From Silvibacterium bohemicum (lineage in GTDB: Bacteria > Acidobacteriota > Terriglobia > Terriglobales > Acidobacteriaceae): a stretch of DNA of 64,000 nucleotides. The DNA lies in the NCBI RefSeq assembly GCF_001006305.1, contig NZ_LBHJ01000020.1, forward strand, positions 62,001-126,000, written 5' to 3'. Positions 5,005-47,175 of this stretch are shown here, in pieces. The notes below the pieces were generated by a model, which searched no databases, was not told the origin of the DNA, and saw nothing but the letters and a program-made list of their open reading frames with translations. Within the stretch, counting starts at the first letter, position 1. Every line of letters starts with the position of its first letter. The position numbers were made by a program, and so were the translations under genes.

Positions 5005-7404
5005 TTAGTAGATCAAATATTGTTTTCGTTTCTCCACGTAGCTCCGGAGAGGAGACTGCCAATCCTCCTCGATGCGCTGCGGATCGCGGTCGGCCGCAAG
5101 GTCACTTAGCACTCCCCTATTGGCGAGAAGAGTCTCAATCTTGTCGAGTTGGTATTGATCGGGATAGAGCTTGTGGAGCTCGGATGCTATTTCCAGACCC
5201 AGCTCCGGCGTATCGAGCACATTACGGCCGGTGACGATTAGCTCGATTCCATGGCAAAGCTGGTTCGCATATGGATATGGAGCTTGCGGAGTAAAGTTCA
5301 CAGGTACGAAGCGAATTCCTGGAAGGAATCTTGCATTGAGCGCACGCGCCAGCGCGCGACCGTCGATCCAGGGTGCACCCACATATTCAAAAGGAGTATC
5401 TGTACCGCGGCCCACAGAGACGTTGCTTGTTTCTATGAGTCCGATGGCCGGATAGAGGATGGCTTCCTGCAAACTGCGCAGGTTAGGCGAAGGATTGGTC
5501 CAGGTAAGGCCGGTGGCATCGAACCAGTCGCCGCGCTGCCACCCCTGCATCGCGATGACGGTAAGAGGTGCGTGGAGCTGGTACTCTCCGTTCAGATAAC
5601 CCGCTAGCTCGCCTAACGTCAGTCCGTGACGGACGGGAACGGGCGCGACATTCACATAGCTTTCGGCGCCGGCGTCTGAAAGAGGGCCTTGAACGAAGGA
5701 GCCTCCAAGAGGATTTGGACGGTCGAGAATGACGATTGCGGTGCCGCTTTTGCCTGCCGCTTCCAGAAAATAGCGTACCTCCGCTTCATAGGTGTAGAAG
5801 CGCACGCCGACGTCCTGAAGATCGATGAGAACAGCATCGAAGTCGCGTAGCGTTTCCAGCGGCGGATGGCGATTGTCTACCTTGCTGCTGTACAGACTGA
5901 CGACGGGAAGCCCTGTTGACGCATCCGTCGAATTCGCGATGTCTGTCTTATCGAGCGCGCCGTCGATGCCGTGCTCGGGAGAGAAGAGCAGCTTGAGCTG
6001 CAGGCCGGGGACGGCGGCTTCGGCATTCTTGGCAAGGACATCGATGGTGCGCCTGCCCTGCGCATCGAGCCCCGTCTGATTGGTGAGCAGCGCGATGCGC
6101 AGCGCGCCGGCGTGCTGCGCGGCAAGTTTCGATAGCTCCGCAAAGTGATCTGCCTCAAGAACATCGATGCCCGTGAGCACGGAGCCATTCCGATCCTGCA
6201 GGCGTCGCATCCCGGAGATCGATTCGTTATAGCCTGTCAGGTTCGCGATCAGCTTACCGTTGTCATCGTGCACCCCGAGCGCGATGGCCGCAGCGTTGGC
6301 CACCGCAGCACGAACGGCAGTAATACCGGTAGGTCCGTTGGGATAGACCGCATTCGCCATCATGACGACGTAAGCATCGTCGGCCGGATCGATCCAAACC
6401 GATGTGCCGGTGAAACCGGTGTGGCCGAAGGAGCCTACAGGAAAAAGCTCGCCGCGGTTGCTCGAGAAGGGTGAGTCAATGTCCCAGCCAAGAGCGCGTA
6501 GCGCGGTGCCCGTTGCTGGCTGTTCTGGAATCGTCATCTTTTCGAGGACCAATCGATTCAGGGGAAAGCGGCTGGCGCGGCCTGCGAGGCGGTCGAGCAG
6601 GTTCTGCGCATAGACTGCGACATCTCCCGCGGTACTGAAGAGCCCAGCGTGCCCCGCCACTCCGCCCATGCGTCTCGCCGTGGGATCGTGCACCAATCCA
6701 CGCAGCATTACTCCGTGGTCATACTGCGTGGGAGCGATGCGGTCATGCCACGACTCTGGCGGAAGAAAACGCGTGCTCTTCAGACCGAGCGGGCCTGCGA
6801 TGAACCTAGTTTCATATTCATCGAGGGTAATTCCGGAGATCTTTTCGACGAGTGCGCCGAGCACGATGAAGTTGATGTCGCTATAACGGAACTGCACACC
6901 TGGAGCCGTGACAGGTGTGCTGGCGAAGGCGCGCCGCAGTCCCTCATCCTTCCCCAGCCAAGGATCTTCCAGCGAGAGATCGGGCGGAAGACCGGAGTAA
7001 TGCGTGAGCAACTGCCGGATCGTAATATCTTCCTTGCCATTGGCGGAAAATTCCGGCAGATATTTCGCAACCGGATCGTTCAACTGAAGACGTCCCTGCT
7101 GGTAAAGCTGCATCACAGCGGGTGCGGTGGCCAGCACCTTCGTAAGCGAGGCAACATCGAAGACGGTATTCTCTGACGTCGCTTCAGGCTGCGGAAGAAG
7201 CGACCGGTTTCCGTAGGCCTTATGGAAAACGATCCGGCCGTGATGGCCGATGATAACGACTGCTCCCGGAAACTTTTTGGCTGCGATAGCCTCTGTGATG
7301 AGGCGATCGATGGGTGCGAAGTCCGATGTCTGCTGGCCTTCGAGACGGAAGGTAGCGGCGAGCGCAATCAGCAACAGGGAAAGATATTTTATGCAGCGGA
7401 TCAT
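5005..7404 (-). CDS. AmiE-like serine hydrolase fused to NamZ (DUF1343) exo-muramidase
   Basis: A 799-residue exported two-domain enzyme. After a signal peptide (about 1-23) comes a class C beta-lactamase-fold serine hydrolase with SxxK at 86-89 (SLTK), YSD at 174-176 and HTG at 328-330. From about residue 430 to the end is a DUF1343/NamZ domain with LFSPEHG, IDLQDVGVRFYTYE and DRPNPLGG signatures. In Bacillus subtilis AmiE (a MurNAc-L-Ala amidase of the beta-lactamase fold) and NamZ (exo-beta-N-acetylmuramidase) are separate genes of one peptidoglycan-recycling cluster; here they are one polypeptide. The start ATG shares one base with the symporter stop (TGATG), indicating translational coupling. 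Amidase specificity of the N-domain is inferred; esterase activity is the alternative. Confidence 0.88.
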   Translation of the reverse strand: MIRCIKYLSLLLIALAATFRLEGQQTSDFAPIDRLITEAIAAKKFPGAVVIIGHHGRIVFHKAYGNRSLLPQPEATSENTVFDVASLTKVLATAPAVMQLYQQGRLQLNDPVAKYLPEFSANGKEDITIRQLLTHYSGLPPDLSLEDPWLGKDEGLRRAFASTPVTAPGVQFRYSDINFIVLGALVEKISGITLDEYETRFIAGPLGLKSTRFLPPESWHDRIAPTQYDHGVMLRGLVHDPTARRMGGVAGHAGLFSTAGDVAVYAQNLLDRLAGRASRFPLNRLVLEKMTIPEQPATGTALRALGWDIDSPFSSNRGELFPVGSFGHTGFTGTSVWIDPADDAYVVMMANAVYPNGPTGITAVRAAVANAAAIALGVHDDNGKLIANLTGYNESISGMRRLQDRNGSVLTGIDVLEADHFAELSKLAAQHAGALRIALLTNQTGLDAQGRRTIDVLAKNAEAAVPGLQLKLLFSPEHGIDGALDKTDIANSTDASTGLPVVSLYSSKVDNRHPPLETLRDFDAVLIDLQDVGVRFYTYEAEVRYFLEAAGKSGTAIVILDRPNPLGGSFVQGPLSDAGAESYVNVAPVPVRHGLTLGELAGYLNGEYQLHAPLTVIAMQGWQRGDWFDATGLTWTNPSPNLRSLQEAILYPAIGLIETSNVSVGRGTDTPFEYVGAPWIDGRALARALNARFLPGIRFVPVNFTPQAPYPYANQLCHGIELIVTGRNVLDTPELGLEIASELHKLYPDQYQLDKIETLLANRGVLSDLAADRDPQRIEEDWQSPLRSYVEKRKQYLIY

Positions 7405-8939
7405 CAGCGGCTCCGATGAGCTTTGGGTAAGAGCTTACTGGCAATCCAGCCGAGCGCAAAGGTAAAGAGCGAGCCAATCACCACGAACCACGTCCACGCG
7501 ATGATAGGCAGCACAATGTGTATGCTGCCCAGTGCGAGAGGAATCGGCCGCGATTGTCTCCACAGAAAAAGATTCAGCGCGAATCCCCCGATCATTCCAA
7601 CGATCGCGCCGGATTCTGTAGTTTCGCTGCTCAGCGTACCGAGAAGAAAGACACCGAGAAGCGCTCCGTATGCGACCGATGCAATGGAGAGACCGACCTC
7701 GACAACGTGGCCGTCTCCGCGCGAGACGCATGCCAGAACGAAGAGCAGCATCGCCCAGAAGATCGTCATCACGCGAGACGCTACGATGCGATGCCGCTCA
7801 CCAGCCGCGGGCTTCCACTGAAGATACAGATCGACCATGCTGCTGGAGCTGAGCGAATTGACCGCGGCGCTGAGATTGGACATGGCTGCAGCAAGAATCG
7901 CAGCAACCATCATGCCGGCGATGCCGCGCGGCATCTGCCGCACGATGAATGTCGGAAAGACACGATCGGCACTCGATGGAGCGCCACCGGTTGCAAAGCG
8001 CGAATAGAAGAAATAAAGGCCGGTGCCGATGGCGAGGAAGAGAACAAACTGCACCAGGATGACGAGTCCGCTGCTCAGCAAGGCAAGGCGTGACTCGCGC
8101 AGATTTCTGGCTGCGAGCAGGCGTTGGACCATAAGTTGGTCCGTGCCATGGCTGGCCATGGTCAAAAAGCATCCGCCGATAAGACCTGCCCAGAAGGTAT
8201 AGGCAGTCGAGAGGTGAAAGGCAAAATGAAAGATGGTGAGCTTGCCTGCTCCGGCGGCTGTGGCATGTATGGCATGCCAGCCGCCGGGTATCAGACGGTT
8301 AAGAGTAAGGACGCCTGCGATGGTTCCCACAAGGTAGAGAATCATCTGCACGACGTCTGTCCAGATAACGGCGGCCATGCCTCCTTCAAGCGTGTAAGCC
8401 AAGGTGAGCGCGCAGATGATGGCGATGGAGATGATGTCCGGCGTGCCGATGGCGATCCCAACCACGATGGAGACGGCGAAGACGCGCACACCTTCTGCCG
8501 CCGCGCGCAGAAAAAGGAAGAGGATTGCAGTCAGCTTGTGCAGGCGCGGCCCAAAGCGCTGTCCGATCACTTGATATGCGGTGAGCAATTCGCCGCGAAA
8601 GTATCGGGGCAAGAAAAGAAAGCATACTACGATGCGACCCAGCAGATATCCGAAGACTATCTGAAGGAACCCCCAATCGCCCGTATAGGCGACCCCGGGC
8701 ACGCTGATGATGGTAAGCGTGCTCGTCTCCGCAGCGACAATGGAAAGCGCAATCGCCCACCACGGAATACGCTGGTCGGCTAGAAAGTAGCTCTTGAGTG
8801 AACGATCGCCGCTACGGAAGCGCAGACCAAAAATTGTAACGGCCACCAGATAAAGAACGACCAGCAGCAGATCCGGATAGCTCAACCGAAGCGTAGAAAG
8901 GGCGGCGTGCGCCGCCATGCCAGATGAGTCGACGAGCAC
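7404..8939 (-). CDS. Sodium:solute symporter (SSS family)
   Basis: A 511-residue polytopic membrane protein with about 13 hydrophobic helices. The N-terminal pattern (YPDLLLVVLYL, SYFLADQRIPWW, then VAAETSTLTIISVPG) is that of the SSS family, which couples Na+ entry to uptake of sugars, amino acids or vitamins. The start is GTG at 8937-8939; an in-frame ATG at 8918 is a possible alternative. It lies five bases after the GH20 gene and overlaps the AmiE-NamZ start by one base, so the three form a transcription unit. The context suggests it imports an amino sugar or small muropeptide fragment released by the neighbouring enzymes; the substrate itself cannot be read from the sequence. Confidence 0.9.
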   Translation of the reverse strand: MLVDSSGMAAHAALSTLRLSYPDLLLVVLYLVAVTIFGLRFRSGDRSLKSYFLADQRIPWWAIALSIVAAETSTLTIISVPGVAYTGDWGFLQIVFGYLLGRIVVCFLFLPRYFRGELLTAYQVIGQRFGPRLHKLTAILFLFLRAAAEGVRVFAVSIVVGIAIGTPDIISIAIICALTLAYTLEGGMAAVIWTDVVQMILYLVGTIAGVLTLNRLIPGGWHAIHATAAGAGKLTIFHFAFHLSTAYTFWAGLIGGCFLTMASHGTDQLMVQRLLAARNLRESRLALLSSGLVILVQFVLFLAIGTGLYFFYSRFATGGAPSSADRVFPTFIVRQMPRGIAGMMVAAILAAAMSNLSAAVNSLSSSSMVDLYLQWKPAAGERHRIVASRVMTIFWAMLLFVLACVSRGDGHVVEVGLSIASVAYGALLGVFLLGTLSSETTESGAIVGMIGGFALNLFLWRQSRPIPLALGSIHIVLPIIAWTWFVVIGSLFTFALGWIASKLLPKAHRSR

Positions 8940-8944
8940 CAGAG

Positions 8945-11080
8945 CTATTTCCCCTGAACCAATTGCGCAGTTGGGATGCCTAGCTCAGGCGGTGGCGGAA
9001 GACTGTGCTGTGTTCGCCAGGCAAGTTGGGCTGAATGAAAAGCCGCACTGCGCTGGACCCACAGCTGCGTTGCGAGATCGTAGCGAACGAGCACGTTTGG
9101 AAGCCAGTAAGGCCGGTTCTCCCGCATCCAGAGATCGGAATATTTCACACGCGCATAGCTGTAACCATCGCGCATATCTTCGCAGAGACCATTTGCGCCG
9201 GAAATTGTGTAGAACAACCCATTTACCTTCTTGGAATTCTGTCCGTCGTTCTGCCACTTGTACATCTGGTCGTAAAGATTCGCGATAAGGTCGGCGGTCT
9301 CGAACTTCTGCCCAATGAAGTCCAGCCTACGCGCGCCGAGCTCGAGTGCATCCAGAGCATCGTTCTCACGCAAGGGTCCGGCAGATCGCGCCTGCGCCAG
9401 TAGAGTGAGGGCGTGTTCCGCATGCAGACGCATGTCATGGAGGAGCGGCCGGAGAGTCGCAGAAACTGTTTGTCCTTCCGCGCTCCAGGGATCGAGCCAG
9501 TAGAGCCCATCGGTCGACTCGCTAATTTTGGCTCCGTCAAGCATCTGGTAGATGGCGATAAGCTCGCGTTGCGCCTGGTTGATGTCGCCGGTATCGTCGC
9601 CGTGGAAAACACTTCCATAGGCGTCCTGGAACTTCGCCGTGTCGCTGCTTCCCTCCTGCCACGCTGCTGCCGCTCCAAAGAGCACGCCGTACCAATTGGA
9701 TTGAAAGAGTCCTTCGCCGTCGTCGTTCCACACGGTGTTAAGCATGCCGGTGCTCCGCGCGGTCTGCCCATCGCGCACGAAGCCCTGAATATTGCGCAAC
9801 GCATAATCGTTGTCAGGATAAACGCGGTTCCAGTTATTCACGCCAGGCGCGACCCAGGTTTCCATACCAGCATCTACGTACGGGTTAAGCCATCGCATGA
9901 AGCCGTTGTCCTCCGGCGAGTAAGTCCAGGCGACGGCGATCATATCCTTAGGCAGGCGTTTAACCTCAGCCGGATCGTTCATCGCGATGTCCCCCCAGAA
10001 GAGAAGCCGGCGGTTCAAGGGAGCGAGTTTGTCATGAACATGCAGAAGAAAGTCGATATAGACAGGACCCAGGCCGTTGGCTTCAACAGCGGCATGCGTC
10101 TGCCCTTTTCCCAGGTCGGCTGTCTCATCCGCACCAATGTGCAGGAAAGGCGAGGGGAAAATCTCTGCAATCTCTCTGAACCACTGACTGATGAGATCGA
10201 GTGATCCAGACTGGCCCGGCGCCAGAACGTTGCCCATCGGAGTTTCTGCAAACGGAGTGTACTGCTCATATTTGAGGACGTGGTGCAGATGGCCAAAAGC
10301 CTCCTGCTCGGGGATGACCATGACATGATAGCTTCGCGCATATGCGACAAGCTCGCGTGCCTCTTCCGGAGTCATGCTGCCTCCGTTGAGACCAGGCACC
10401 GGGTTCGAAGGGTATTGTAGTGTGTTCTCGAAGTAGGGCGAGTAGACGTTGAGCTTGTATGCGGCAAGGGTTCGGATCTGACGCTTCTGAAACTCGAGCG
10501 TAGGCAGAGGGCCGCGGGAGAGATCGTCCGAGAGACCGCGGTAGCGCATGGCCGGCCAGTCACGGATGGTCGCCACCTGGAGCTTCGCGCTCGATCCTCG
10601 TGCGACGATCATCTGCTTAACTGTCTGTTCTCCGTAAAAAATGCCGATAGGCGTGTCGGCGATTACTGCGACCCCTTTGGGAGCCGGAACGATCGCATAA
10701 CCTTCCTCATGCATTGCAGGGTCGAGCCTGACATTAGACTTGGTGAGGAGTTTCTGGGCTCGGGAAGAAGACTTGAGAAGCAGTTGAACGGAAGCGAAGG
10801 CGCGGCCGTGGGCTGCAGTTACATTGAGCTGCTGCAGCCAATCGGAGAGATCCTTTGCGGCAAAATGGACATCCGGATCGTTGTCACCGCTGACCGTGAC
10901 ACCTCGATCGAGTGGAATAACGCCATCGCTTGCATATTCGCGGGGTGCGGGAATCAGTTGTGCGCCGCTGATTTGCTGTGCGACTGCAGTATTGACAAAG
11001 GCTACGAGCGCTAGTGCGGCTGCAACACCGTAGATGACGAATTTCCCTCGCTCACGCTGAGTCGACGATACCGGTTTCAA
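8945..11080 (-). CDS. Exported beta-N-acetylhexosaminidase, GH20
   Basis: The frame is open from 11353, but that would overlap the upstream gene by 80 bases. A TTG at 11078-11080, six bases after AGGA, gives a 711-residue protein that begins with a proper signal peptide (about residues 14-34, ending TAVAQ). A GH20b N-terminal alpha/beta domain precedes the TIM barrel. The catalytic Asp-Glu pair lies in HIGADET at D318-E319; GH20 enzymes work by substrate-assisted catalysis, the Asp orienting the substrate acetamido group. Substrates are terminal beta-linked GlcNAc/GalNAc from chitin, glycans or peptidoglycan. First gene of the operon with the symporter and AmiE-NamZ, where it would take the place NagZ holds in Bacillus. 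The C-terminal 200 residues are helical. Confidence 0.9.
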   Translation of the reverse strand: MKPVSSTQRERGKFVIYGVAAALALVAFVNTAVAQQISGAQLIPAPREYASDGVIPLDRGVTVSGDNDPDVHFAAKDLSDWLQQLNVTAAHGRAFASVQLLLKSSSRAQKLLTKSNVRLDPAMHEEGYAIVPAPKGVAVIADTPIGIFYGEQTVKQMIVARGSSAKLQVATIRDWPAMRYRGLSDDLSRGPLPTLEFQKRQIRTLAAYKLNVYSPYFENTLQYPSNPVPGLNGGSMTPEEARELVAYARSYHVMVIPEQEAFGHLHHVLKYEQYTPFAETPMGNVLAPGQSGSLDLISQWFREIAEIFPSPFLHIGADETADLGKGQTHAAVEANGLGPVYIDFLLHVHDKLAPLNRRLLFWGDIAMNDPAEVKRLPKDMIAVAWTYSPEDNGFMRWLNPYVDAGMETWVAPGVNNWNRVYPDNDYALRNIQGFVRDGQTARSTGMLNTVWNDDGEGLFQSNWYGVLFGAAAAWQEGSSDTAKFQDAYGSVFHGDDTGDINQAQRELIAIYQMLDGAKISESTDGLYWLDPWSAEGQTVSATLRPLLHDMRLHAEHALTLLAQARSAGPLRENDALDALELGARRLDFIGQKFETADLIANLYDQMYKWQNDGQNSKKVNGLFYTISGANGLCEDMRDGYSYARVKYSDLWMRENRPYWLPNVLVRYDLATQLWVQRSAAFHSAQLAWRTQHSLPPPPELGIPTAQLVQGK

Positions 11081-28531: not shown

Positions 28532-29499
28532 CGCGGCTCTCTTGCGTTGAGGACAGCACTTATCAATATGCCGAAGCCCACGCCGAGGCATGCCACAACG
28601 GAGACCATGCGAATGGCTTTTTTGGAATCGCCAACTTCAGCGGCCGAAAACTCTTGTCCCATCACCGACGCCGGGATGACCTCACCGGCATACGTGTTTT
28701 CGCCACCCAGCCGCACATGCAATGCTCCCGCCATCGCACTCTCCGGCTGACCGGCATTCGGACTTTTGTGTTTGTCGCCGTCGCGCAACCATATGCTCAT
28801 CGCAGCTCCAGGATCGGCATCTCTTAAAACGGTAGCTGCCGCGACAATACCGAATGCAGTGAGACGCGCAGGAAGATAATTTGCTGCATCGTCGAGCCGA
28901 GCCGCTGCCTTACCAAAGTAAAAGTATCGGGAGTCCGCATGCCCGATCATGGAATCCAGAGTATTGACCGCTTTGTAAGCCATGGCCAGCGGAACGCCAC
29001 CGAGCGCCATGTAGAACAGCGGCGCCATAATTCCATCCGACGCACTTTCTGCGGCGGTCTCGATAACTGCGCGGCTGATTTCTCGATCATCGAGATGCTG
29101 CGTATCGCGGCCGACGATGCGGGAAAGCCTGCGGCGAGCAAGAGGAATGTCGTCTAATGCGAGAGCCTCGACAACTGCAGACGTCTCCTGCTGGAGATTG
29201 CGAGCGGCTAGGCATGTCCACCCGAGAATCAGTTCGGCCATATCGCCAAGATGCGTCGAACGACGATTCGCTTGCCGGATAATCTCAGCGGTAAAGAAGT
29301 ACGTGGAGAAAACAATGGCCGCCGTGAGTGCTGCGCCTGAAGCAAGTTCAACAGCTACCGATTGATCGGGACGGCGGAGCGCTGTTTCTCCGCGCGCGAT
29401 CCCGAAACCTATCAGCCGCACGGGATGAGGTAAGCACTCCGGATCTCCTGCAAGCTGGTCGAGAAGATAGGCCGCTGGAAGGAGAATACAACGATTCAA
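28528..29499 (-). CDS. cbiB: Adenosylcobinamide-phosphate synthase
   Basis: A 323-residue membrane protein. The start is TTG at 29497-29499 (TTGA overlap with the cobQ stop), with AGGAGG seven bases upstream. Signatures: LDQLAGDPECLPHPVRLIG, NRRSTHLGDMAELILGWTCLAARNL, RDTQHLDDREISRAVIETAAESASDGIMAPLFY and YKAVNTLDSMIGH. CbiB attaches aminopropanol phosphate to adenosylcobyric acid at the inner membrane. Neighbours cobQ (substrate maker) and cobD (second substrate maker) bracket it. Confidence 0.95.
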   Translation of the reverse strand: MNRCILLPAAYLLDQLAGDPECLPHPVRLIGFGIARGETALRRPDQSVAVELASGAALTAAIVFSTYFFTAEIIRQANRRSTHLGDMAELILGWTCLAARNLQQETSAVVEALALDDIPLARRRLSRIVGRDTQHLDDREISRAVIETAAESASDGIMAPLFYMALGGVPLAMAYKAVNTLDSMIGHADSRYFYFGKAAARLDDAANYLPARLTAFGIVAAATVLRDADPGAAMSIWLRDGDKHKSPNAGQPESAMAGALHVRLGGENTYAGEVIPASVMGQEFSAAEVGDSKKAIRMVSVVACLGVGFGILISAVLNAREPR

Positions 29500-31088
29500 C
29501 GAAGCGCCTCCTGACTCCTAGTTTGCAACCGACTCTGATACTCAACTCCTAGCCAGCCGAATATCTTCTCCATATCCAGCGATTCCTCCACAGAATCAGC
29601 GAGACGATTCAGTGCATCTTCGCGTTTTTGTTTCCAATTTTCGCGAGTAAGAGCCGGAGCCAATCGGTGGAAGCTACGAGCAGCATCGATAAAGAGATGA
29701 CGGAAGCTATCTTCATCGAAAAGCCCGTGCAAATAAGTACCGAAGACGCGGCCGTCCTTCGTGATACAGCCATCACGAATGCGTGTCGGTTGCGACTCGT
29801 CCTGGCGACTCAGCTCGGCCAGCGGCTCGGCTTCGCCAAGATAGCTGGTCTCACCGATGTGAATCTCATACCCGCTCAACGTCATCGGAGTCACCGACTG
29901 ACCAAAGAGAGCCGGTGCTATCAGCTCACCTGCAGAGATGTTGGTGACCTTCATGGGCTGCATCGTGGTCCGAATGGGAAGCAATCCGAGTCCGCGGATC
30001 GCACCTTGGTGCTCCATACCTTCGGGATCCACGATCGATTCGCCGAGCATCTGCATACCTCCGCAGATGCCAACGATAAGGCCATGAAGGGCGTGATCCA
30101 TCAAGGCTCGTTCGATTCCTTCGCTTCGCAGCCAGATTAGATCATCGACCGTCTGTTTGCTGCCCGGAAGGATAATGATGTCAGCGTATTGCAGCTGAGC
30201 CACAGCTTTGCAGAAGCGAAGCGACACGGACGGCTCCGACCGCAGAGCGTCGAAATCTGTAAAGTTCGAGAAGGATGGAAGAGCCACGACTGCGATGCGC
30301 AACTGCCGGTCAACAGCGGTCGAGAGTTGCCACTGCTGGCTCTTCTGCTCTCCTTGATCCGGAAGACCGAGGCTATCTTCCTCGTCGAGCGTCAGGTTCT
30401 GCAAGTACGGCACCACGCCCAGGCAGGGCTTGAGGAGCCGCTGCTCCATCATGCGAATTCCCGGTTCCAGAAGCGAAACGTCGCCCCGAAATTTGTTGAT
30501 GACGAACCCTCGAATGCGCTCTTGCTCGTCGCGCTCGAGAAGTTCGACGGTGCCGAGAAGCGATGCAAAGACGCCGCCGCGATCGATATCTCCGACGAGG
30601 AGACAACTGGCGTCCGCCATCTCTGCGATACGCATGTTGACGATGTCGTTTTGCTTGAGGTTGATCTCCGCTGGCGAACCTGCTCCCTCGATCACAACAA
30701 TATCGTTTTTTGCAGCGAGGGCTTCATAGCTCTCACGAACGATGGGCAAGAGCTCTTGCACTCGGCGCTGGTGATAATCCGAGGCGGTAAGCTTGCCCCA
30801 TATTTTCCCTCGAACAATAATTTGCGATGCTCTCTCTCCAGCCGGCTTCAGAAGAATTGGATTCATGTCGACGGAAGGGGCGATGCCGGCGGCTTCCGCC
30901 TGCAGCGCCTGAGCGCGACCGATCTCCAGGCCCTCGATGGTGGCGGCAGAGTTGAGCGACATGTTTTGTGACTTAAAAGGCGCGACGCGATATCCATGGC
31001 GCGCAAAGATGCGGCAAAGCGCTGCGGTGAGCAGAGATTTTCCCACATGCGAGCTCGTTCCCAGCACCATGATGGATCGAGCTTTCAT
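29496..31088 (-). CDS. cobQ: Cobyric acid synthase
   Basis: The ATG at 31086-31088 overlaps the bluB stop (ATGA) and gives 530 residues; the frame open to 31220 adds an unlikely extension. The N-terminal ATPase domain has VLGTSSHVGKSLLTAALCRIF, the glutamine-amidotransferase domain has ILPGSKQTVDDL and GICGGMQMLGE with the nucleophilic Cys, and a His-containing GTYLHGLFDED motif. It amidates side chains b, d, e and g of adenosylcobyrinic a,c-diamide. The position between bluB and cbiB fits the pathway. Confidence 0.95.
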   Translation of the reverse strand: MKARSIMVLGTSSHVGKSLLTAALCRIFARHGYRVAPFKSQNMSLNSAATIEGLEIGRAQALQAEAAGIAPSVDMNPILLKPAGERASQIIVRGKIWGKLTASDYHQRRVQELLPIVRESYEALAAKNDIVVIEGAGSPAEINLKQNDIVNMRIAEMADASCLLVGDIDRGGVFASLLGTVELLERDEQERIRGFVINKFRGDVSLLEPGIRMMEQRLLKPCLGVVPYLQNLTLDEEDSLGLPDQGEQKSQQWQLSTAVDRQLRIAVVALPSFSNFTDFDALRSEPSVSLRFCKAVAQLQYADIIILPGSKQTVDDLIWLRSEGIERALMDHALHGLIVGICGGMQMLGESIVDPEGMEHQGAIRGLGLLPIRTTMQPMKVTNISAGELIAPALFGQSVTPMTLSGYEIHIGETSYLGEAEPLAELSRQDESQPTRIRDGCITKDGRVFGTYLHGLFDEDSFRHLFIDAARSFHRLAPALTRENWKQKREDALNRLADSVEESLDMEKIFGWLGVEYQSRLQTRSQEALR

Positions 31089-31759
31089 GAGCAATCGGCT
31101 CCGGAGCAGGCATCCGAATATCGATCGTAGGAGATCACCGATCGAAGCTGCGTACGCGTTTCCCACCCGTGGCGTTCGAGGTCTGGCTCTGCGGCAAAAT
31201 GGTCGACGTAGCCTATACACAGATACGCCACGATTACTAAATGCTGAGGAATGCCGAGCAGCTCTTGAAGCCTTTCCGGATCGATAATGCTAACCCAACC
31301 AACCCCGACTCCTTCAGCGCGGGCGGCGAGCCAGAGATTCTGAATCGCGCATACGGTCGAGTAGAGAGAGGTTTCCGGCATCGTCTGGCGGCCAAGCTTG
31401 TGACCCCGCTCGCTGTTCGCATCACAGACCACGCATAGATTTTGCGGAGCCTCGCGTATGCCTTCGAGCTTGAGGTCGGAATAATGTTGCCGCTGCTCTC
31501 CCGAATAGGTCGCAGCCGCCGCGGTATTTGCTTTCGAGAAAATGCCATGGACGACCTCGCGAACGGCGGGATCTCGGACGACGATAAAGCGCGATGGCTG
31601 CATCAGTCCGACAGAGGGTGCGCTGTGAGCGGCGCTCAGCAGACGTTCCAGCAATTCGTCCGGCAGAGGCTGCGCCGTGTAACCCCTGCGCACGTCTCGA
31701 CGCGTCGCGATGGCACGGTAGACCGCGTTCCGCTCCGATTCACTGAATGCGTTGCTCAT
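31085..31759 (-). CDS. bluB: 5,6-dimethylbenzimidazole synthase
   Basis: 224 residues from the ATG at 31757-31759, seven bases after the adenosyltransferase stop; the frame is open further upstream but the extension overlaps that gene. It is a nitroreductase-fold flavoprotein with RRDVRRGYTAQPLPDELLERLL, HSAPSVGLMQPSRF and WLAARAEGVGVGWVSI, the BluB pattern. BluB fragments reduced FMN with O2 to make the lower ligand DMB used by CobT, which is encoded in the same operon. Its presence implies aerobic synthesis of the true B12 lower ligand. Confidence 0.93.
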   Translation of the reverse strand: MSNAFSESERNAVYRAIATRRDVRRGYTAQPLPDELLERLLSAAHSAPSVGLMQPSRFIVVRDPAVREVVHGIFSKANTAAAATYSGEQRQHYSDLKLEGIREAPQNLCVVCDANSERGHKLGRQTMPETSLYSTVCAIQNLWLAARAEGVGVGWVSIIDPERLQELLGIPQHLVIVAYLCIGYVDHFAAEPDLERHGWETRTQLRSVISYDRYSDACSGADCS

Positions 31760-31766
31760 GAAATTG

Positions 31767-32342
31767 TCACCACGCTCTCGACCACTTGGGGCCTGCCTTC
31801 TCTTCGACGCGGAGACGCGAGTCCACACCTGCATTGAACTCAATAAGGCGGCCAAAGAGCCAGATGACGTCGGACAAACGGTTGAGATACGCAATCACTT
31901 CTGGCTGGACGACACCGCCGCTTTCAATAAACCTGACGACGTTGCGCTCTGCCCTTCGGCAAACGGTCCGCGCGACTTCGTAAGCTGCCGATTCGGTGTG
32001 TCCCCCTGGAAGCGACCAGTCGGAGAGAATGCCTTCCGTTGCTTCAATCTTGTGGACGAGATCCGTAAGCTTGTCCACATCTTCGGTGGACACGACGGGC
32101 GGCTTCTTCTTGCTTTCGGGTGGAGTCGCCAACGCCGATCCCACGCGGAAAAGAGTGCGCTGAATCTCCTCTGTCCACGCGGCGATTTCGTTGTTCTGAC
32201 AGATACTGCGCGCAAAGCCTAGAAACGAATTCAACTCGTCTACCGATCCGTACGATTCGACACGAAGATCCGACTTGGAGACGCGGATGCCGCCGGCAAG
32301 CCCGGTCTGGCCGCCGTCGCCACGTTTGGTTGCGATACTCAT
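31767..32342 (-). CDS. Cob(I)alamin adenosyltransferase, PduO type
   Basis: 191 residues; AAGGAGG lies six bases before the ATG, and the start overlaps the preceding stop by four bases. The N-terminal TKRGDGGQTGLAGG, SYGSVDELNSFLG and the RTVCRRAERNVVRF helix are diagnostic of the PduO/MMAB trimeric fold, as opposed to the CobA/CobO P-loop enzyme usually expected at this step. It moves adenosyl from ATP to cob(I)alamin or precursor corrinoid. In the operon it stands before bluB and cobQ, where the corrinoid must be adenosylated. Confidence 0.93.
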   Translation of the reverse strand: MSIATKRGDGGQTGLAGGIRVSKSDLRVESYGSVDELNSFLGFARSICQNNEIAAWTEEIQRTLFRVGSALATPPESKKKPPVVSTEDVDKLTDLVHKIEATEGILSDWSLPGGHTESAAYEVARTVCRRAERNVVRFIESGGVVQPEVIAYLNRLSDVIWLFGRLIEFNAGVDSRLRVEEKAGPKWSRAW

Positions 32343-33154
32343 GATGATCCTCCTTGCGATACTGCTGGCGCGAACGTCTCTTCAATAGCAATTCTTAGCG
32401 TCTTGATGAGCGGTGGACGCTCGTATTCGATGGTCAATGCGGCGTCTAAAAAATCTGTGACAAGCGGTGGCGAATCCGAGAGCAAAACATCTTCGGGAAA
32501 AAACCACGGTTGATTGGCACCAAGCTCCTCCAGCGTTCGAGCCTGGACGATAACCGCAGGAAGCGTGAAGATGCCAGCTCGAAGAAGAGCGTAGGCGCGA
32601 TGATAACCGTCGCGCAGAAACCACCGGCCGCGGTAGCGTCCCACTTCAAAGAAGGGGCTGCCCGCGTGAACAATCACGGGCGTCGAGCCTTCGGTCGAGA
32701 ATCGAAAGTGCAGATTCGGATCTCGGGACTCCAAAACGAGGTTTCGGTTTGTCTCGGCATGCACCAGATCGAAGCTTATCGTCTTCGCCGGTCCGAAGGC
32801 CAGGGTAAGGAGGTCCTCTATCTGTGCAGGGTCAACTACGGAGCCAGCACTGGCGTTAAAACAAAGCCGCCGCTGGAATGCTAAAAGCAGACGCAGGTCC
32901 ACAACGCCAAGCGACCAATCGAGACCAGCCATCTCGGCTTGCAGGTCCCGTCTTGCGGCCTGTACAGAGAAGGCATCGCGGAACTTTTCGGACTCCTCAA
33001 GGATCATCGCATTCGCAGCCTCGAAAGGCGCGCGCTGCGTGACAATGCGGCGTGCATCGGCCCACTTGCCGCGATCGTAAGTGGCGGCCCTATACTCATA
33101 AGCGTCGAAATCCCAGCCGCTCAGCTCTCGTATACGATCGTTCTGGTCGCTCAT
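32339..33154 (-). CDS. Unknown protein embedded in the cobalamin operon, ParB-like motif
   Basis: 271 residues from the ATG at 33152-33154. Both ends overlap neighbours by four bases (ATGA): cobC upstream and the adenosyltransferase downstream, so it is translationally tied to B12 genes. No signal peptide or membrane helix. Residues about 182-194 read DGYHRAYALLRAG, preceded by GRYRGRWFLR and followed by PAVIVQAR; this spacing resembles the DGHHR..A/G..VPV core of ParB/sulfiredoxin-like domains, which in some cases bind nucleotides. The N-terminal half is helical. I recognise no named family. A cobalamin-related role is inferred only from position. Confidence 0.7.
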   Translation of the reverse strand: MSDQNDRIRELSGWDFDAYEYRAATYDRGKWADARRIVTQRAPFEAANAMILEESEKFRDAFSVQAARRDLQAEMAGLDWSLGVVDLRLLLAFQRRLCFNASAGSVVDPAQIEDLLTLAFGPAKTISFDLVHAETNRNLVLESRDPNLHFRFSTEGSTPVIVHAGSPFFEVGRYRGRWFLRDGYHRAYALLRAGIFTLPAVIVQARTLEELGANQPWFFPEDVLLSDSPPLVTDFLDAALTIEYERPPLIKTLRIAIEETFAPAVSQGGSS

Positions 33155-33711
33155 CGACCTGCCTCGCACGGATATTTGAAGAAGCTGCAATAGATCTCAG
33201 TCCTGCGCCATGCATCACGCTCATCGAGACCGCATAGACTTTGCAGCACAACGCGCATTACTCCAGCGTGCGTGACGACAGCGGCCTGGCTATCGCGCGA
33301 GCAGGAAAGGATGTTGTCTATCTCAACGAGCACACGGGACCGAAAAGCATCGAACGATTCACCTTGCGGCGCAGAATGATTCGGATAGTTCGCCATCCAT
33401 TTCGACGCATAGACCGGATCTCTGTTTTCGATCTCCTGCCAGGCAAGCCCTTCCCATTCTCCAAACGCGATCTCCCGCAGACCTTGCCGCACGATTGGAT
33501 CCTGAGCCAACGGTCTGGCCAGAGCCTTCGCTGTCGTTATCGCGCGCCGCAGGTCGCTGGTATAAACGGCTGAGATCGGCTCGGCTGCGATTTTGCTCAC
33601 AAGCTCAGCAATCTGCAGCCGCCCACGTGCATTCACCGGTGGATCGGAGTGTCCGCAAAACTTGCCTGCCATATCGGTTTCAGCATGACGGATAAAGAGG
33701 AGAGAGCTCAT
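33151..33711 (-). CDS. cobC: Alpha-ribazole phosphatase-like histidine phosphatase
   Basis: 186 residues from the ATG at 33709-33711, which overlaps the cobS stop (ATGA). The frame is open to 34497 but that part is antisense-like shadow of cobS. The N-terminal FIRHAETD carries the phospho-histidine RHxE motif; REIAFGEWEGLAWQEI and VVTHAGVMRVVL provide the acid and second His. CobC dephosphorylates adenosylcobalamin 5'-phosphate or alpha-ribazole phosphate. Placement between cobS and the rest of the operon supports this; a general phosphoglycerate mutase-like phosphatase is the alternative. Confidence 0.92.
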   Translation of the reverse strand: MSSLLFIRHAETDMAGKFCGHSDPPVNARGRLQIAELVSKIAAEPISAVYTSDLRRAITTAKALARPLAQDPIVRQGLREIAFGEWEGLAWQEIENRDPVYASKWMANYPNHSAPQGESFDAFRSRVLVEIDNILSCSRDSQAAVVTHAGVMRVVLQSLCGLDERDAWRRTEIYCSFFKYPCEAGR

Positions 33712-34484
33712 GCGATCCACACACCGCAAAGATAGACGGCTATCTCGGTGAGCTGGTTCGTCGCTCCGAAGCAATCGCCGGTTATACCGTCGATCTTTCG
33801 CCGGTAATAGAGGGCGCTGAGCAGTGTAACCATTATCGTCATCAGAATTGGGGCGACGGCTTGGATGCGCAACAAAAGACCAACAATGACAAGGCTGAAA
33901 ACACTTCCTGCGATAAGCGCGCCGCGGCTCGTAAGCTGGGCGACGCGTGCGCCCTGACCGTCCGTTGTGTCGCCGCCACTTCGCGCCGGCCTCAAATAAT
34001 AGCTGAGCGGCAGCGTCGTCCATCGGCACAGCACGTGCGAAGAAATCAGGTATTGCGTGACGTGCGCAAGAGGAAGCGACGAGAGCAGCAGCACCCGCGC
34101 CAGTAAGCTCAAAGCCAAGGCCGCGGCACCGTAGGTGCCTATGCGGCTGTCGCGCATGATACGCAGAATCTGCTCGCGGTCGCGACCGCCACCGAAGCCG
34201 TCGGCCACGTCGGCAAGCCCGTCTTCGTGAAGGCAGCCGGTAAGGCAAAGCAGAAAGATCAGCACCAGCAACGCAACCACCAGAGGCGGAAGATGAGGAG
34301 CGAGCAAAAAATAGAGAAGCGCCGCCAGCGAGCCAAGAATCAACCCGCCGACAGGAAAGAACTTCACTGCTCTCGCCAGCGAATCCGCCTCGTAGGACTG
34401 CGATGGAACGGGAATGCGGGTGAGGAACTGGATTGCCGTGAGCAACTCCAACCAAGTTCTCCGTAAAAACACAAGAGCTGTCAT
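33708..34484 (-). CDS. cobS: Adenosylcobinamide-GDP ribazoletransferase
   Basis: 258 residues from the ATG at 34482-34484, which overlaps the cobT stop (ATGA). A polytopic inner-membrane protein: AIQFLTRIPVP, then the CLTGCLHEDGLADVADGFGGGRDREQILRIMRDSRIGTYG region holding the conserved acidic DGLAD..DG motif, and DCFGATNQLTEIAVYL near the end. CobS joins alpha-ribazole (phosphate) to adenosylcobinamide-GDP to complete cobalamin. Directly downstream of cobT, which supplies the ribazole phosphate. Confidence 0.95.
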   Translation of the reverse strand: MTALVFLRRTWLELLTAIQFLTRIPVPSQSYEADSLARAVKFFPVGGLILGSLAALLYFLLAPHLPPLVVALLVLIFLLCLTGCLHEDGLADVADGFGGGRDREQILRIMRDSRIGTYGAAALALSLLARVLLLSSLPLAHVTQYLISSHVLCRWTTLPLSYYLRPARSGGDTTDGQGARVAQLTSRGALIAGSVFSLVIVGLLLRIQAVAPILMTIMVTLLSALYYRRKIDGITGDCFGATNQLTEIAVYLCGVWIA

Positions 34485-35563
34485 GCCGAAGGCCCACTCA
34501 CGCCGGCGGAAGCAAAGGTTGCCATCTGCTGATAGAGACAAATTGCAGATTCGAGGATAGGCATGGCCAGCACCGCTCCGGTACCTTCTCCGAGACGCAT
34601 ATCGAGCGTGAGCAGAGGTGTCAGAGCCAGGTAATCGAGTAAGAGCTTATGCCCCGGTTCTTGCGAGCAATGTCCGGCAATTAGATATCCGCCAACCTTC
34701 GGTTCGATTGCGGCGGCGATTGCGGCAGCAGCCGTGGAGATGAACCCATCGGCTACGATAACTAGCTTGTGCCGCGCCGCAGAGAGCACCATCCCGGTCA
34801 TCGCCGCAATCTCTAAGCCTCCGAGGCAACGCAAAATATCCAGGGCCGCGGACGGCTGACCCGCTGCTCCAAAATGTCGCTCCCCTACAGCTCGAACCAC
34901 GGCTACTTTGCGGGCGTGAGCTTCAGCGTCGAGGCCCGTTCCCCGCCCTGTTGCCAAGTCGGAGGAAGCGCCCGTAAGCGCACAGGTAATTGCGCTGGCG
35001 GAGGTGGTGTTGCCGATGCCCATCTCGCCTATGGCAAGGAACGAGTGGCCTGCGCGCGCTGCGTCGGCGGCCAGATCCATACCGATGGTGAGGGCTTGCG
35101 CGAGCTGTTCCTCACTCATCGCCGGCTCGTGCAGCATGTTGCGCGTGCCTCTGGCTACCTTGCGATGGAGAAGGCCGGGAGCACCTTCGAGACCGGCGTC
35201 AACCCCGACGTCCACCACCTGAAGATGGACATGATGCAGGCGCGCAAGCACGTTAATCGCTGCGCCCTGAGCCAGGAAGTTCAGCACCATCTGGTGTGTG
35301 ACTTCGCGCGGATAGGCACTTACGCCCTCGGCGACGATGCCGTGGTCGGCGGCAAAAATATAGACGGCTTTACTGACGGTGTCTCCGGCTTTGTCCTGAC
35401 GAATGGAGACAATCTGAGCTGCGAGATCTTCGAGTCGCCCCAGGCTGCCAAGAGGCTTGGTGAGCGAATCGAGACGCTCGCGAGCACGGGCTCGCCATGT
35501 TTCGCTTGGAGGCTCGATGCCGTTCGTCACCCGTTCAACAACCGCTGCACTTTTCGAGGTCAC
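34481..35563 (-). CDS. cobT: Nicotinate-nucleotide-dimethylbenzimidazole phosphoribosyltransferase
   Basis: 360 residues; GTG start at 35561-35563 with AGGA seven bases upstream. Signatures are LTKPLGSLGRLEDLAAQ, FAADHGIVAEGVSAYP, GEMGIGNTTSASAI and SQEPGHKLLLDYL, with the catalytic Glu expected in the final region (MRLGEGTGAVLA). CobT activates DMB to alpha-ribazole phosphate using nicotinate mononucleotide. It lies 46 bases after cbiA and overlaps cobS, and pairs functionally with the bluB product. Confidence 0.95.
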   Translation of the reverse strand: MTSKSAAVVERVTNGIEPPSETWRARARERLDSLTKPLGSLGRLEDLAAQIVSIRQDKAGDTVSKAVYIFAADHGIVAEGVSAYPREVTHQMVLNFLAQGAAINVLARLHHVHLQVVDVGVDAGLEGAPGLLHRKVARGTRNMLHEPAMSEEQLAQALTIGMDLAADAARAGHSFLAIGEMGIGNTTSASAITCALTGASSDLATGRGTGLDAEAHARKVAVVRAVGERHFGAAGQPSAALDILRCLGGLEIAAMTGMVLSAARHKLVIVADGFISTAAAAIAAAIEPKVGGYLIAGHCSQEPGHKLLLDYLALTPLLTLDMRLGEGTGAVLAMPILESAICLYQQMATFASAGVSGPSA

Positions 35564-35609
35564 GCGGCGTCCTGCATCGATGAATGGTTACTTGCTAGAA
35601 GGAGAGTCT

Positions 35610-36998
35610 TCATGCCGTGGCCAGCTCCAGCGAACGCACCCTGCGGGCAGCTTCGACCAGGTGCGGAGCGATCGACGGCGCGGCTCGGAAGTGGAGATGG
35701 ACGTAGCTCGCCAGAATGTTCCCCACGCTGAAGCCCTCGCTCTCCTCGCGCCCCGAGAGCGAATAGTGCACGCGATAGGCTGTGGGCATTTCCGGTTTCT
35801 CGCTTATTCGGGAATAGTGGAAGCTGTGCCCGCGGATCACGGTTCCGCGCGGACCAACGATGCAGTCTTTTGTAATTGTGACTGTGGCGTATCCAAAGTG
35901 CACCAGCTTGCCGGTCATTTCAAATGCGCAAGGCAACACGCCGGCCATGGAGTGCGCAACACCGTCTCTCGTGGTGAGCTGACGGGAAAGATAGATCATC
36001 CCGCCGCATTCGGCATAGACCGGCCGGCCAGAAGCAGCAAAATCCCGGACAGATGTCAGCATATTCGTGTTCCGGCTGAGTTGATCCGCGTAAAGCTCGG
36101 GATAGCCGCCGCCAAGATACAAACCATCGAGATTCGCTGGAAGCGACGGATCATTCGCCGGACTGAATGGAACGATCACTGCTCCTTGTTGACGGAGCAA
36201 ATCCAAATTGTCTTCGTAGTAGAAGGAGAAGGCTCGATCCCGGGCCACACCGATACGAACGGCAGGCTTGTTCTCGCTTCGATCCGCTGCGTTGTATTTG
36301 AACTCCAGACCGCACTCCAGCGATAGAAGCCGATCGAGATCGAGATGCTTCTCCGCAGTGGCAGCAAGTGCATCGATCATCTTCTCGGTCTCAGCAGGCG
36401 AGTCGGCCTCCTCCGCGGTGTGAAGTCCAAGATGCCGTTCGGGAATGGCAAGGGCAGGCTCTCGCGGAATCCAGCCCATAATCGGCGTTTTGCAAGTAGA
36501 GGCTATTGCCGCTTCGAGCATGCGGTAGTGCCGGTCGCTGGCCACGCGGTTCAGAATGACTCCCGCAAGAGTCGATTGCGGATCGAAGAGTTCAAAGCCC
36601 AATACCACGGCGGCCACGCTGCGCGCGCTCTTCGCCGCATCGACGACCAACACCACGGGCAGCTTGAGGAGCTTTGCAATCTCGGCACTGCTTCCCACAT
36701 CACTCGCCCCTTCCTTGCCGTCGAAGAGACCCATCATGCCTTCGACCAAAATGGCATCGGCATCATTCGATGCCTCGCGCAGCACATCGCGGTTCGCGTC
36801 GGAAGAGAGCATCCAGGTGTCGAGGTTGCGTGCAACGCGGCCTGAAATGCGCGTGTGATGGCCAGTGTCGAGGAAATCCGGGCCGCCTTTGAAGGGCTGG
36901 ACCCTGCAACCGCGACGGCGCATTGCCGCAAGAAGACTCAGAACTACCGTGGTCTTGCCTACTCCACTGGCGGTGCCCGCAATGAGCATGCCCTTCAT
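35610..36998 (-). CDS. cbiA: Cobyrinate a,c-diamide synthase
   Basis: 462 residues; the start overlaps the cobU stop (ATGA). N-terminal LIAGTASGVGKTTVVLSLLAAM with a P-loop-like ATPase site, FKGGPDFLDTGHH, VEGMMGLFDGKEG; C-terminal type-1-like glutamine amidotransferase with LYLGGGYPELYA and VYAECGGMIYLSR (nucleophilic Cys) and HSFHYSRI. It amidates side chains a and c of cobyrinate before adenosylation. Its retention in an operon without any corrin-ring genes in view suggests use of an imported incomplete corrinoid or that ring genes are elsewhere. Confidence 0.94.
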   Translation of the reverse strand: MKGMLIAGTASGVGKTTVVLSLLAAMRRRGCRVQPFKGGPDFLDTGHHTRISGRVARNLDTWMLSSDANRDVLREASNDADAILVEGMMGLFDGKEGASDVGSSAEIAKLLKLPVVLVVDAAKSARSVAAVVLGFELFDPQSTLAGVILNRVASDRHYRMLEAAIASTCKTPIMGWIPREPALAIPERHLGLHTAEEADSPAETEKMIDALAATAEKHLDLDRLLSLECGLEFKYNAADRSENKPAVRIGVARDRAFSFYYEDNLDLLRQQGAVIVPFSPANDPSLPANLDGLYLGGGYPELYADQLSRNTNMLTSVRDFAASGRPVYAECGGMIYLSRQLTTRDGVAHSMAGVLPCAFEMTGKLVHFGYATVTITKDCIVGPRGTVIRGHSFHYSRISEKPEMPTAYRVHYSLSGREESEGFSVGNILASYVHLHFRAAPSIAPHLVEAARRVRSLELATA

Positions 36999-39110: not shown

Positions 39111-41507
39111 ATGTTTGCAGATCGCAAGGAAAATACCATCGACCGAAGTAAGGCCGCGGCGTCGGAGCGTGTCACCATCCCTGTGACCGGGATGACCTGC
39201 GCCGCCTGCCAATCTTTTGTTCAACGAACCCTCGCGGACCAGGCGGGCGTACGCGATGCCAACGTGAACCTCATGCTGAACAACGCGACGGTGACGTTTG
39301 ACCCGCGCGTGGCATCGATCGCCGGGCTGGTCGAGAGTATTCGCAGCACGGGTTATGGAGCGTCCGAACTTAGCCCGAACGCATCGGTTCTCGAGGAGCA
39401 GGAGCAGCATGATGTGGAGCAGCTCCGCGAATACAAACAATTGCGCGTGAAGGCGGCAGTAAGCCTGGCCTCAGGATGCGTCGCCATGCTGCTTTCCATG
39501 CCATTGATGGGCATGACGGATGCCGGCACATCGCGCTTGCATGATCCCCTGATGAGCTGGAACATGCGCGTCCTCGACCCCATCCTGCGCAAAGCCCTAC
39601 CCTGGATTTATGAGCTGAGTGGCGACACCATCCGGTGGTTTCTCTTCGCCCTCTCCGCATTGATCGTTGCCTGGGCGGGACGCCGCTTCTACACCAAGGC
39701 ATGGTCTGCGCTTCTGCACAAAACGGCCGACATGAATACGCTGGTCGCACTTGGAACCGGAGCCGCTTTTCTTTACTCCGCTGCGAGCACTATTGCACCC
39801 GGCTTTTTTCTCGCGCACGGCATCGCTCCGGATGTTTATTTCGAAGCGGGATTGCTCATCATCGGGCTGGTGCTCGTCGGAAATACACTGGAGAGCAGGG
39901 CGAAAGGCCAGACCGTGACTGCATTGCGGAAGCTGGTGCAGCTGCAACCGAAGACGGCGACTGTCCTTAAAGATGACGTCGAAGCTACGGTTGCCATCGA
40001 TTCGATTCAGGCCGGGGATCTGATTCTGGTGCGTCCCGGCGAGCGTGTACCGACTGACGGAGAAGTGGTTTCGGGACGAAGCAGCGTTGACGAATCCATG
40101 CTCACTGGCGAATCGCTGCCGGTCGAGAAGGTTGCTCAAGATCGGGTCATCGGAGGAACGCTCAATCAGAATGGAGCGTTTCAATACCGGGCGGCCGCGC
40201 TGGGATCCGGAAGCACCCTGTCGCAGGTCGTGAGGCTGCTACGCGAAGCGCAGGGATCGCGCGCGCCGATTCAACGCATTGCCGACCGTATCAGCGCCAT
40301 CTTCGTGCCAACGGTCCTGGGCATCGCGGCGGTGACATTTTTGGCGTGGCGGGCGTTCGCTCCGCATGCCGGCGTTATGCAGGCTTTTGCCGCCGCCGTC
40401 ACGGTCCTGGTTATCGCATGTCCATGCGCGATGGGACTGGCAGTTCCCACCGCGGTCATGGTGTCCACGGGACGCGGCGCGGCCTTCGGCATTCTTATCA
40501 AGGGTGGTGAGGCCCTCCAGAGGATGGAAAAGATCGACACCGTCGTTCTCGATAAGACAGGCACCATCACGACCGGCCGGCCTCAGGTCACTGACGTCCT
40601 CGGGATCGCACAAAACGAAGCTGGTTCGGATACTGCGGACGCCGCGATTCGCATTGCAGCGGCGCTCGAACGAGCCAGCGAGCATCCGCTGGCAGAGGCT
40701 ATCGTGCGCTACGCTCGGGAACACGAGTTGAGCCTTTCACAACCGGAAGAGTTCGAATCCTTGCCCGGCCTCGGAGTCTTAGGCCGCGTCGATGGAGATT
40801 CAGCGATGGTCGGCAATGCCGCCCTGATGGAGAAATTTGGAGTGTCAACAGATTCGCTACTGTCGGCTGCAATGCGTTATGCAGAAGAAGGCAAAACGCC
40901 GCTCTGGATTGCCGTCAACGGTAAGCTGGCGGCGATGATTGCCGTGGCGGATACGATCAAGCCCACTTCCCTTGCGGCTATCCGGCAATTGCATGCTGAG
41001 GGGCTGCGGGTGGTCATGTTGACCGGCGACAATGAGCGGACGGCGCAGGCGATTGCACGCACGGTTGGAGTCGATGAGGTGATCGCGGGCGTCCTGCCGG
41101 CCGGCAAGGTGGAGGCCATCCAGCGCATCCAGGCCGAGCGGCGCCTCGTAGCGATGGTCGGGGACGGCGTCAATGACGCTCCAGCGTTGGCCCAGTCCGA
41201 TGTTGGATTGACGATGGCCAACGGCGCCGACATTGCCATGGAAGCCGGAGACGTAACTCTGATGCGCAACGACCTGACGGGCGTGGCGACGGCCATTGCG
41301 CTCTCCCGCAACACGATGCGCGTGATTCGCCAGAACCTCTTTTGGGCCTTCATCTATAACGTGATCGGGATACCGCTCGCGGCGGGCGCGCTTTATCCGG
41401 TCTTCGGGCTGCTGCTCAGCCCGGTAATCGCCAGTGCGGCAATGGCTCTCAGTTCATTCAGCGTGGTGGCAAACAGTTTGCGACTTCGAAATTTAAAGCT
41501 CGCGTAA
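39111..41507 (+). CDS. copA: Cu(I)-exporting P-type ATPase
   Basis: 798 residues. One N-terminal HMA domain with GMTCAAC, then paired transmembrane helices, the CPC motif at 437-439 in [12 protein letters not shown], phosphorylation Asp481 in [15 protein letters not shown] at 684-691, and two final helices with the N-Y and M-S-type residues ([27 protein letters not shown]) used by Cu-ATPases. It pumps Cu(I) out of the cytoplasm. Located between copZ and csoR. A silver-exporting function is also common to this family. Confidence 0.96.
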
Positions 41508-41522
41508 GGAGGCCAATCGGAG

Positions 41523-43825: not shown

Positions 43826-43854
43826 AACCTGGCCTCACGCAGTACCTTGTCTCA

Positions 43855-43912
43855 TCTGCGAGGACACATCTTTCGCGCTTCATTGCGCGGGGATGTGTCC
43901 TCAGATTTTTTT
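43855..43912 (+). terminator. Strong rho-independent terminator after the phosphoesterase gene
   Basis: An 11-base perfect stem (GAGGACACATC with GATGTGTCCTC) enclosing a further CGCGC/GCGCG stem, followed by AGATTTTTTT. It separates the phosphoesterase from the multicopper oxidase. Confidence 0.85.
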
Positions 43913-43968
43913 GGAAAGGCCCGATTCTCTACTCGCCCTTCATATTCTCAGGCGAAAATAAATCTCAC

Positions 43969-47153: not shown

Positions 47154-47175
47154 TTGCCGGCCTTCCTCTCGGTTC

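Follow-up and report, generated by a model that had tools for sequence, protein, structure and literature searches.

In a 64,000-nucleotide stretch of the Silvibacterium bohemicum genome (contig NZ_LBHJ01000020.1; the whole stretch is referred to as the window), one gene encodes an AmiE-like serine hydrolase of family S12 that is fused to a NamZ (DUF1343) protein, and this AmiE-NamZ gene follows directly on genes for a sodium:solute symporter (SSS) and a GH20 hexosaminidase. The locus is probably a module for the scavenging of peptidoglycan amino sugars that attacks the chains at their ends, on the outer side of the inner membrane. An exported GH20 enzyme would take off terminal N-acetylglucosamine (GlcNAc), the AmiE-like half would remove the stem peptide from the exposed N-acetylmuramic acid (MurNAc), the NamZ half would then cleave off the bare MurNAc, and the symporter would take it up. 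Inside the cell, a NagK/MurK-type kinase, MurQ and NagA would convert MurNAc to GlcNAc 6-phosphate and glucosamine 6-phosphate; the genes for these three are present in S. bohemicum, and their substrates are predicted. In a clade of relatives in which the symporter shares one reading frame with AmiE-NamZ, a former signal peptide, now internal, would bring the two hydrolases across to the periplasmic side, beside the importer of their product.

The fusion protein and its locus in S. bohemicum

A preliminary description of this DNA had noted a 799-residue protein with an SxxK/YSD/HTG set and DUF1343 signatures, and Pfam matches and motif positions (Table 1) confirm it: Beta-lactamase (3.3e-68) is followed by NamZ_N (4.3e-70; 235.7 bits at a cut-off of 26.9) and NamZ_C (5.9e-42; 144.5 bits at a cut-off of 25), all three scores being far above the curated cut-offs. 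S86, K89, Y174, D176, H328, G330, P476, E477 and G479 are invariant in all 98 fusions compared in the family, and T329 and H478 are kept in 97 of them. The NamZ half, for which a lack of catalytic residues had been considered, thus retains the conserved ones. The AlphaFold2 model of the fusion has a mean predicted local distance difference test score (pLDDT) of 85.5, and its NamZ part matches the fold of solved Bacteroides fragilis DUF1343 proteins. Family, fold and conserved residues together suggest that this half is an exo-beta-N-acetylmuramidase, and it accounts for the single NamZ_N match in the whole genome. The other half has the S12 fold with SxxK, YxD and HTG, which we take to be the marks of the enzyme class of AmiE.

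The gene order had been described correctly. The stop codon of the symporter gene and the ATG of the fusion gene overlap by one base in TGATG, the GH20 gene ends 5 nt from the GTG start of the symporter gene, and the position 11080 given earlier for its other end fits a TTG start, which is located after AAAGGAAGAAGG and before a signal-peptide-like stretch (read by eye); the longest open frame begins at 11353. The co-transcription on which the earlier description depended agrees with genes that overlap or nearly touch, and gene spacing, its one basis, suggests that the three genes form a transcription unit. Scans of this region for promoter- and terminator-like sites gave nothing above shuffled sequences.

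The symporter has the 13-helix fold and matches SSF (Pfam, 1.5e-42) and TIGR00813 (218.3 bits at a cut-off of 184). Its nearest solved relative by sequence is SiaT (5nv9, 1.1e-43), which binds an acidic N-acetylated sugar and holds the carboxylate with Ser60, Thr63 and Arg135 (PMC5931594). Given this kinship and the retention of the Ser and the Thr (invariant S55 and T58), MurNAc is a plausible substrate. The GH20 protein matches Glyco_hydro_20 (1.6e-17) and Glyco_hydro_20b (3.3e-13), could be aligned to Nag2 (6ezr), and has the catalytic domain with its Asp-Glu pair.

Table 1. Features of the locus and of related clusters elsewhere in the S. bohemicum genome
Feature	Position	Strand	Details
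AmiE-NamZ fusion gene	5005..7404	-	799 aa, ATG start; signal-like hydrophobic N-terminus, residues 1-19 (hydropathy)
S12 serine-hydrolase domain (beta-lactamase fold)	6301..7311	-	residues 32-368; SxxK S86-K89, YSD Y174-D176, HTG H328-G330
NamZ N-terminal domain	5470..6096	-	residues 437-645; PEHG at 476-479
NamZ C-terminal domain	5008..5460	-	residues 649-799; Pfam PF20732, 5.9e-42
Sodium:solute symporter (SSS)	7404..8939	-	at most 511 aa, from GTG 8939
GH20 hexosaminidase	8945..11080	-	711 aa, from TTG 11080; signal-like N-terminus; Asp-Glu pair in HIGADE
Second S12 gene, MurQ, VWA-domain gene, MurA (after about 0.8 kb)	L251 6542-12128 (own genome, C16)		all in the same direction
NagZ-AnmK pair	L256 6702-8926 (own genome, C13)		directly downstream of a MutS-like long frame (by eye)

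Elsewhere in the window, the minus strand carries two CobB/CobQ-type glutamine amidotransferase genes (29499-31220 and 35613-36998, within 29499-36998), probably part of a cobalamin cluster. On the plus strand there are a heavy-metal P-type ATPase, a phosphoesterase and an overlapping frame with a multicopper-oxidase domain (39111-45567), and a large sensor with two-component-regulator propeller, Y_Y_Y, HisKA_3 and HATPase_c domains (47086-50283).

Distribution and the one-frame form in relatives

The AmiE-NamZ fusion is ordinary in the family Acidobacteriaceae, neither rare nor peculiar to S. bohemicum, and the window protein is one conserved representative of an architecture that is common in Acidobacteriota. 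NamZ_N was found in 171 of 200 family genomes (130 of the 146 that are of good quality) and, among phylum genomes at least 90% complete, in 241 of 297. We examined 101 family loci including that of the window, hand-picked to cover each genus about once, with genomes that have long frames added: 78 have AmiE-NamZ (double fusions), 20 have SSS-AmiE-NamZ in one frame, which in such a sample is no frequency, and 3 have NamZ alone (one at a contig end). Among the 30 best-scoring loci of the phylum (L140-L169), seven have AmiE-NamZ according to tblastn, and 19 have NamZ frames of 391-462 aa. Three loci of other Acidobacteriota families (L147, L156, L165) have about 280-500 residues before NamZ in the same open frame; these stretches gave no Pfam domain match and are possibly another fusion partner or merely a long open frame.

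Of the 171 genomes with NamZ, at least 20 have the one-frame form, with 1258-1695 codons from stop to stop (one of the 20 frames is cut by a contig end), and these 20 members, together with two in which symporter and enzyme are separate again, form one clade (Shimodaira-Hasegawa-like approximate likelihood ratio test 98) in a quick, midpoint-rooted tree of the AmiE-NamZ part, made from 96 rows without bootstrap and without L066 and L137. A second set of 80 loci from named genomes, which are not placed in the tree, was retrieved with symporter patterns from the alignment of one-frame proteins and is biased toward this form. It contains 49 one-frame loci (L180 and L204 reach a contig end), six with an SSS-AmiE frame that is broken (L210, L212, L232) or runs into a contig end (L201, L220, L226), 23 with AmiE-NamZ and the symporter separate or absent, and two with neither; at least eight of the 49 repeat family loci, so that the two sets are not independent. 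Carriers include Terriglobus roseus DSM 18391, Granulicella mallensis X5P3, G. rosea DSM 18704, G. paludicola DSM 22464, Bryocella elongata DSM 22489 and several Edaphobacter, and Pfam SSF, Beta-lactamase, NamZ_N and NamZ_C were all found in the one-frame proteins of T. roseus and L037. Long AmiE-NamZ frames without SSS (G109, G115) and cases with SSS in a different overlapping frame (G099, G144) were not counted, and the window genome itself has the unfused form with overlapping genes. An assembly error as the origin of the one-frame form was rejected: the form belongs to a single clade, is free of internal stops, and is present in four single-contig genomes (G095, G158, G174, G194) as well as the complete T. 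roseus chromosome. Two one-frame loci are labelled Verrucomicrobia (L188) and Rhodanobacteraceae (L198); both resemble metagenome assemblies, and these names may be wrong. In searches of a library of open papers, as far as titles and the beginnings of abstracts go, we found no description of a symporter fused to NamZ or AmiE.

Is the long frame also translated as one chain? At eight of nine junctions that were read by eye, no start codon is preceded by a ribosome site in a suitable position, and AmiE-NamZ should therefore be translated there as part of the long chain. The codon-position pattern of junction differences between close pairs (positions 1/2/3: 7/2/16 for L035/L036, 8/4/14 for L035/L132, 4/2/5 for L036/L132, 14/9/22 for L038/L039) together with the many amino-acid changes indicates that the junction is a weakly constrained coding linker. 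The former signal peptide is located after a complete 13-helix symporter as an additional hydrophobic segment. We see close to an even chance that a sodium symporter forms one covalent chain here with the two hydrolases that supply its substrate, with the former signal peptide as helix 14 and the product handed over at the membrane. Two features of the junctions count against such an arrangement, namely the ATG after GGAG in L050, where a separate start is possible, and the fast evolution of this region, where 36 codons have, for instance, 7 amino-acid changes, versus 9 in the 488 codons of the symporter part. The one-frame product could also be a polyprotein, cleaved by signal peptidase I behind the internal signal peptide into a separate mature symporter and enzyme. 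This is a serious possibility, if somewhat short of even: sequences of the AHAQ, AEAQ and AVAQ type follow the hydrophobic segment in many members (by eye, without a predictor), the linker of the L037 model has a pLDDT below 50 at residues 508-528, and the two re-split members of the clade have signal-like starts of their own, but some members keep the frame without a clear cleavage site (e.g. L129). In the re-split members (L130 7515-10085, L131 7308-9965), about 1 kb of other sequence separates the symporter from the enzyme.

Neighbouring genes and alternative readings

There are two main arrangements in the relatives: either GH20, often with NagA, precedes the symporter, or a second S12 gene and MurQ adjoin the fusion. 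In the one-frame loci, GH20 (19 of 20) and NagA (14 of 20) are ahead of the symporter, and SSS and GH20 occur together in 16 of the 78 double-fusion loci. A second S12 gene and MurQ are both beside the fusion in 36 of these 78, usually divergent, and MurA is found in 33. The MurQ, NagA and MurA examples that were scanned pass their NCBIfam cut-offs, and the second S12 gene has PBP4B as its best model, below the cut-off. A BcrAD-family kinase is encoded in 5 of the 20 one-frame family loci, 21 of the 49 named ones and 2 of 81 others, the latter being the re-split members; the best solved relative is the MurNAc/GlcNAc kinase 8zo3 (9e-25 for L032, 6e-28 for the S. bohemicum kinase). The presence of MurQ, NagA and this kinase relative beside fusions in other genera strengthens the functional reading, as does the sharing of one frame by the symporter and AmiE-NamZ in one clade. 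GH3 genes lie in 6 of the 78 double-fusion loci; a role of these as NagZ was rejected, as the one of the six that was scanned is a two-domain GH3 with 150.9 bits at a NagZ cut-off of 207. In L234-L241, L244, L245, L247 and L249, several of them labelled Bryobacterales, AmiE-NamZ is followed after a few kb by an SSS gene on the other strand.

A number of points weigh against the scavenging function. The enzyme and transport activities of all proteins of the locus are predicted. The position of SiaT Arg135 is an Ala in the symporter, which has an Arg three residues earlier and in this respect is not of the SiaT type. Solved relatives of the GH20 protein carry the names of other hexosaminides, and we know of no GH20 that acts on peptidoglycan. 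As to the co-occurrence with SSS and GH20 genes that the preliminary description had proposed to survey, the fusion is indeed widespread, but in the double-fusion loci SSS is present in 28 of 78 and GH20 in just 17; 10 of the 78 have no SSS, MurQ or second S12 gene within the locus stretch, and all 20 one-frame loci lack MurQ. Finally, the AmiE-NamZ scavenging system as earlier described is in part upheld, by architecture, motifs, gene order and neighbour genes, but AmiE is not the one label that would suit the S12 domain: it has similarity to PBP4B, AmpH, esterases and class C beta-lactamases as well, and the best-scoring curated (NCBIfam) model is that of PBP4B (NF002968, 151.1 bits).

What else could the S12 half do? 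It might be a PBP4B-like DD-carboxypeptidase or endopeptidase, or an esterase, and would then trim the peptide only in part or remove another group before NamZ acts. Besides the model score, its solved relatives include esterases and beta-lactamases, and PBP4B itself is encoded in the murQ operon of Escherichia coli, as the available part of the source states (PMC5061867). Such a role seems unlikely, as the score is far below the PBP4B equivalog cut-off of 385 bits, as B. subtilis amiE and ybbC share one cluster (same part of PMC5061867), and as an amidase step ahead of NamZ suits the chemical order. It is more doubtful still that symporter and GH20 serve the uptake of GlcNAc or chitobiose, with AmiE-NamZ as a mere neighbour in the same amino-sugar cluster. 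GH20 enzymes are typically associated with chitin and host glycans, and NagA and a NagK-like kinase would equally serve GlcNAc. This does not go well with the one-frame clade, nor with the 12 of 28 double-fusion loci with separate SSS that have no GH20 in the stretch examined (some stretches being short), nor with the MurNAc importer MurT of Tannerella forsythia, a member of the sodium symporter superfamily in the part of the source available (PMC5790795).

Even if the locus is a scavenging module, the scavenged material could be the own cell wall. S. bohemicum has two MurQ genes, one of them clustered with the second S12 gene, the VWA gene and MurA (Table 1), and in many other genera S12 gene, MurQ and MurA of such a cluster adjoin AmiE-NamZ. 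Its kinase gene adjoins NagA, and NagZ adjoins AnmK, a pair that we read as a cytoplasmic route for the recycling of anhydro-MurNAc, in addition to the exolytic one. MurQ was above the cut-off in all 30 genomes tested, the kinase family was present in all eight tested, and NagA was above the cut-off in seven of eight. Four one-frame genomes (G031, G067, G098, G174) yielded no GH3 frame shorter than 700 aa and thus of NagZ size, and GH20 may replace NagZ there. NagZ-AnmK and two MurQ are typical of recycling, and it is possible that the system recycles own rather than foreign peptidoglycan. We lean against it, as an exported GH20 and a dedicated importer would suit exogenous material, as the NagZ-AnmK route would already handle anhydro-muropeptides, and as the four one-frame genomes gave no NagZ-size frame.

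Comparison with known systems

Related components occur in B. subtilis, whose ybbC we take to be the gene later named namZ, and in T. forsythia, where ybbC presumably encodes DUF1343. In the available part of the source, B. subtilis AmiE and NagZ degrade muropeptides sequentially outside the cell, ybbC adjoins, and the murQRP-amiE-nagZ-ybbC cluster brings together, like the loci described here, AmiE, NamZ, an exo-GlcNAc-ase and a MurNAc importer, along with MurQ (PMC5061867). The B. subtilis enzymes are separate there, the importer is MurP of the phosphotransferase system (PTS), and NagZ is the GlcNAc-ase (PMC5061867), whereas in S. bohemicum AmiE and NamZ form a single chain, import would fall to an SSS protein, GH20 is the predicted GlcNAc-ase, and MurQ is encoded elsewhere. 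In case of T. forsythia, MurNAc is imported by MurT, and MurT, MurK and MurQ with upstream ampG and ybbC combine a symporter-superfamily importer, a kinase, MurQ and ybbC in one operon; the genes are separate and the accessible portions of the sources name no importer-hydrolase fusion (PMC5790795, PMC5388701). We liken the SSS protein to MurT by gene linkage. From the sequential degradation in B. subtilis and the T. forsythia symporter we infer the same sequence of steps, i.e. GH20, AmiE, NamZ, import, phosphorylation, MurQ and NagA.

The S12-DUF1343 domain order was tabulated in 2008 for one protein, the DDPept-DUF1343 protein YP_439122.1, and S12 is combined with GH3 modules in the GH3-DDPept proteins NP_811352.1 and YP_444518.1; all three are listed as rare architectures without further study, and no symporter part is named, in the part of the paper available (PMC2605481). 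The murQ-murP-yfeW operon of E. coli likewise unites an S12-type serine hydrolase (PBP4B) with MurQ and a MurNAc importer, but has a PTS importer and, within the text available, no NamZ and no fusion (PMC5061867).

Gene fusion often marks functional partnership, and MurNAc is therefore predicted as the substrate of this so far unassigned SSS subfamily; the one-frame form turns a guess from gene neighbourhood into a testable prediction. In some relatives, where the importer shares the reading frame, there may be a physical link between cutting and uptake, and the family makes the question of whether dead bacteria serve soil Acidobacteriota as food accessible to genetics. Cell-wall enzymes and importer are separate proteins in the known systems considered above, and the fusion of an amidase-like enzyme to a putative exo-muramidase, in one clade also to the importer, would permit a direct test of the coupling of digestion and uptake.
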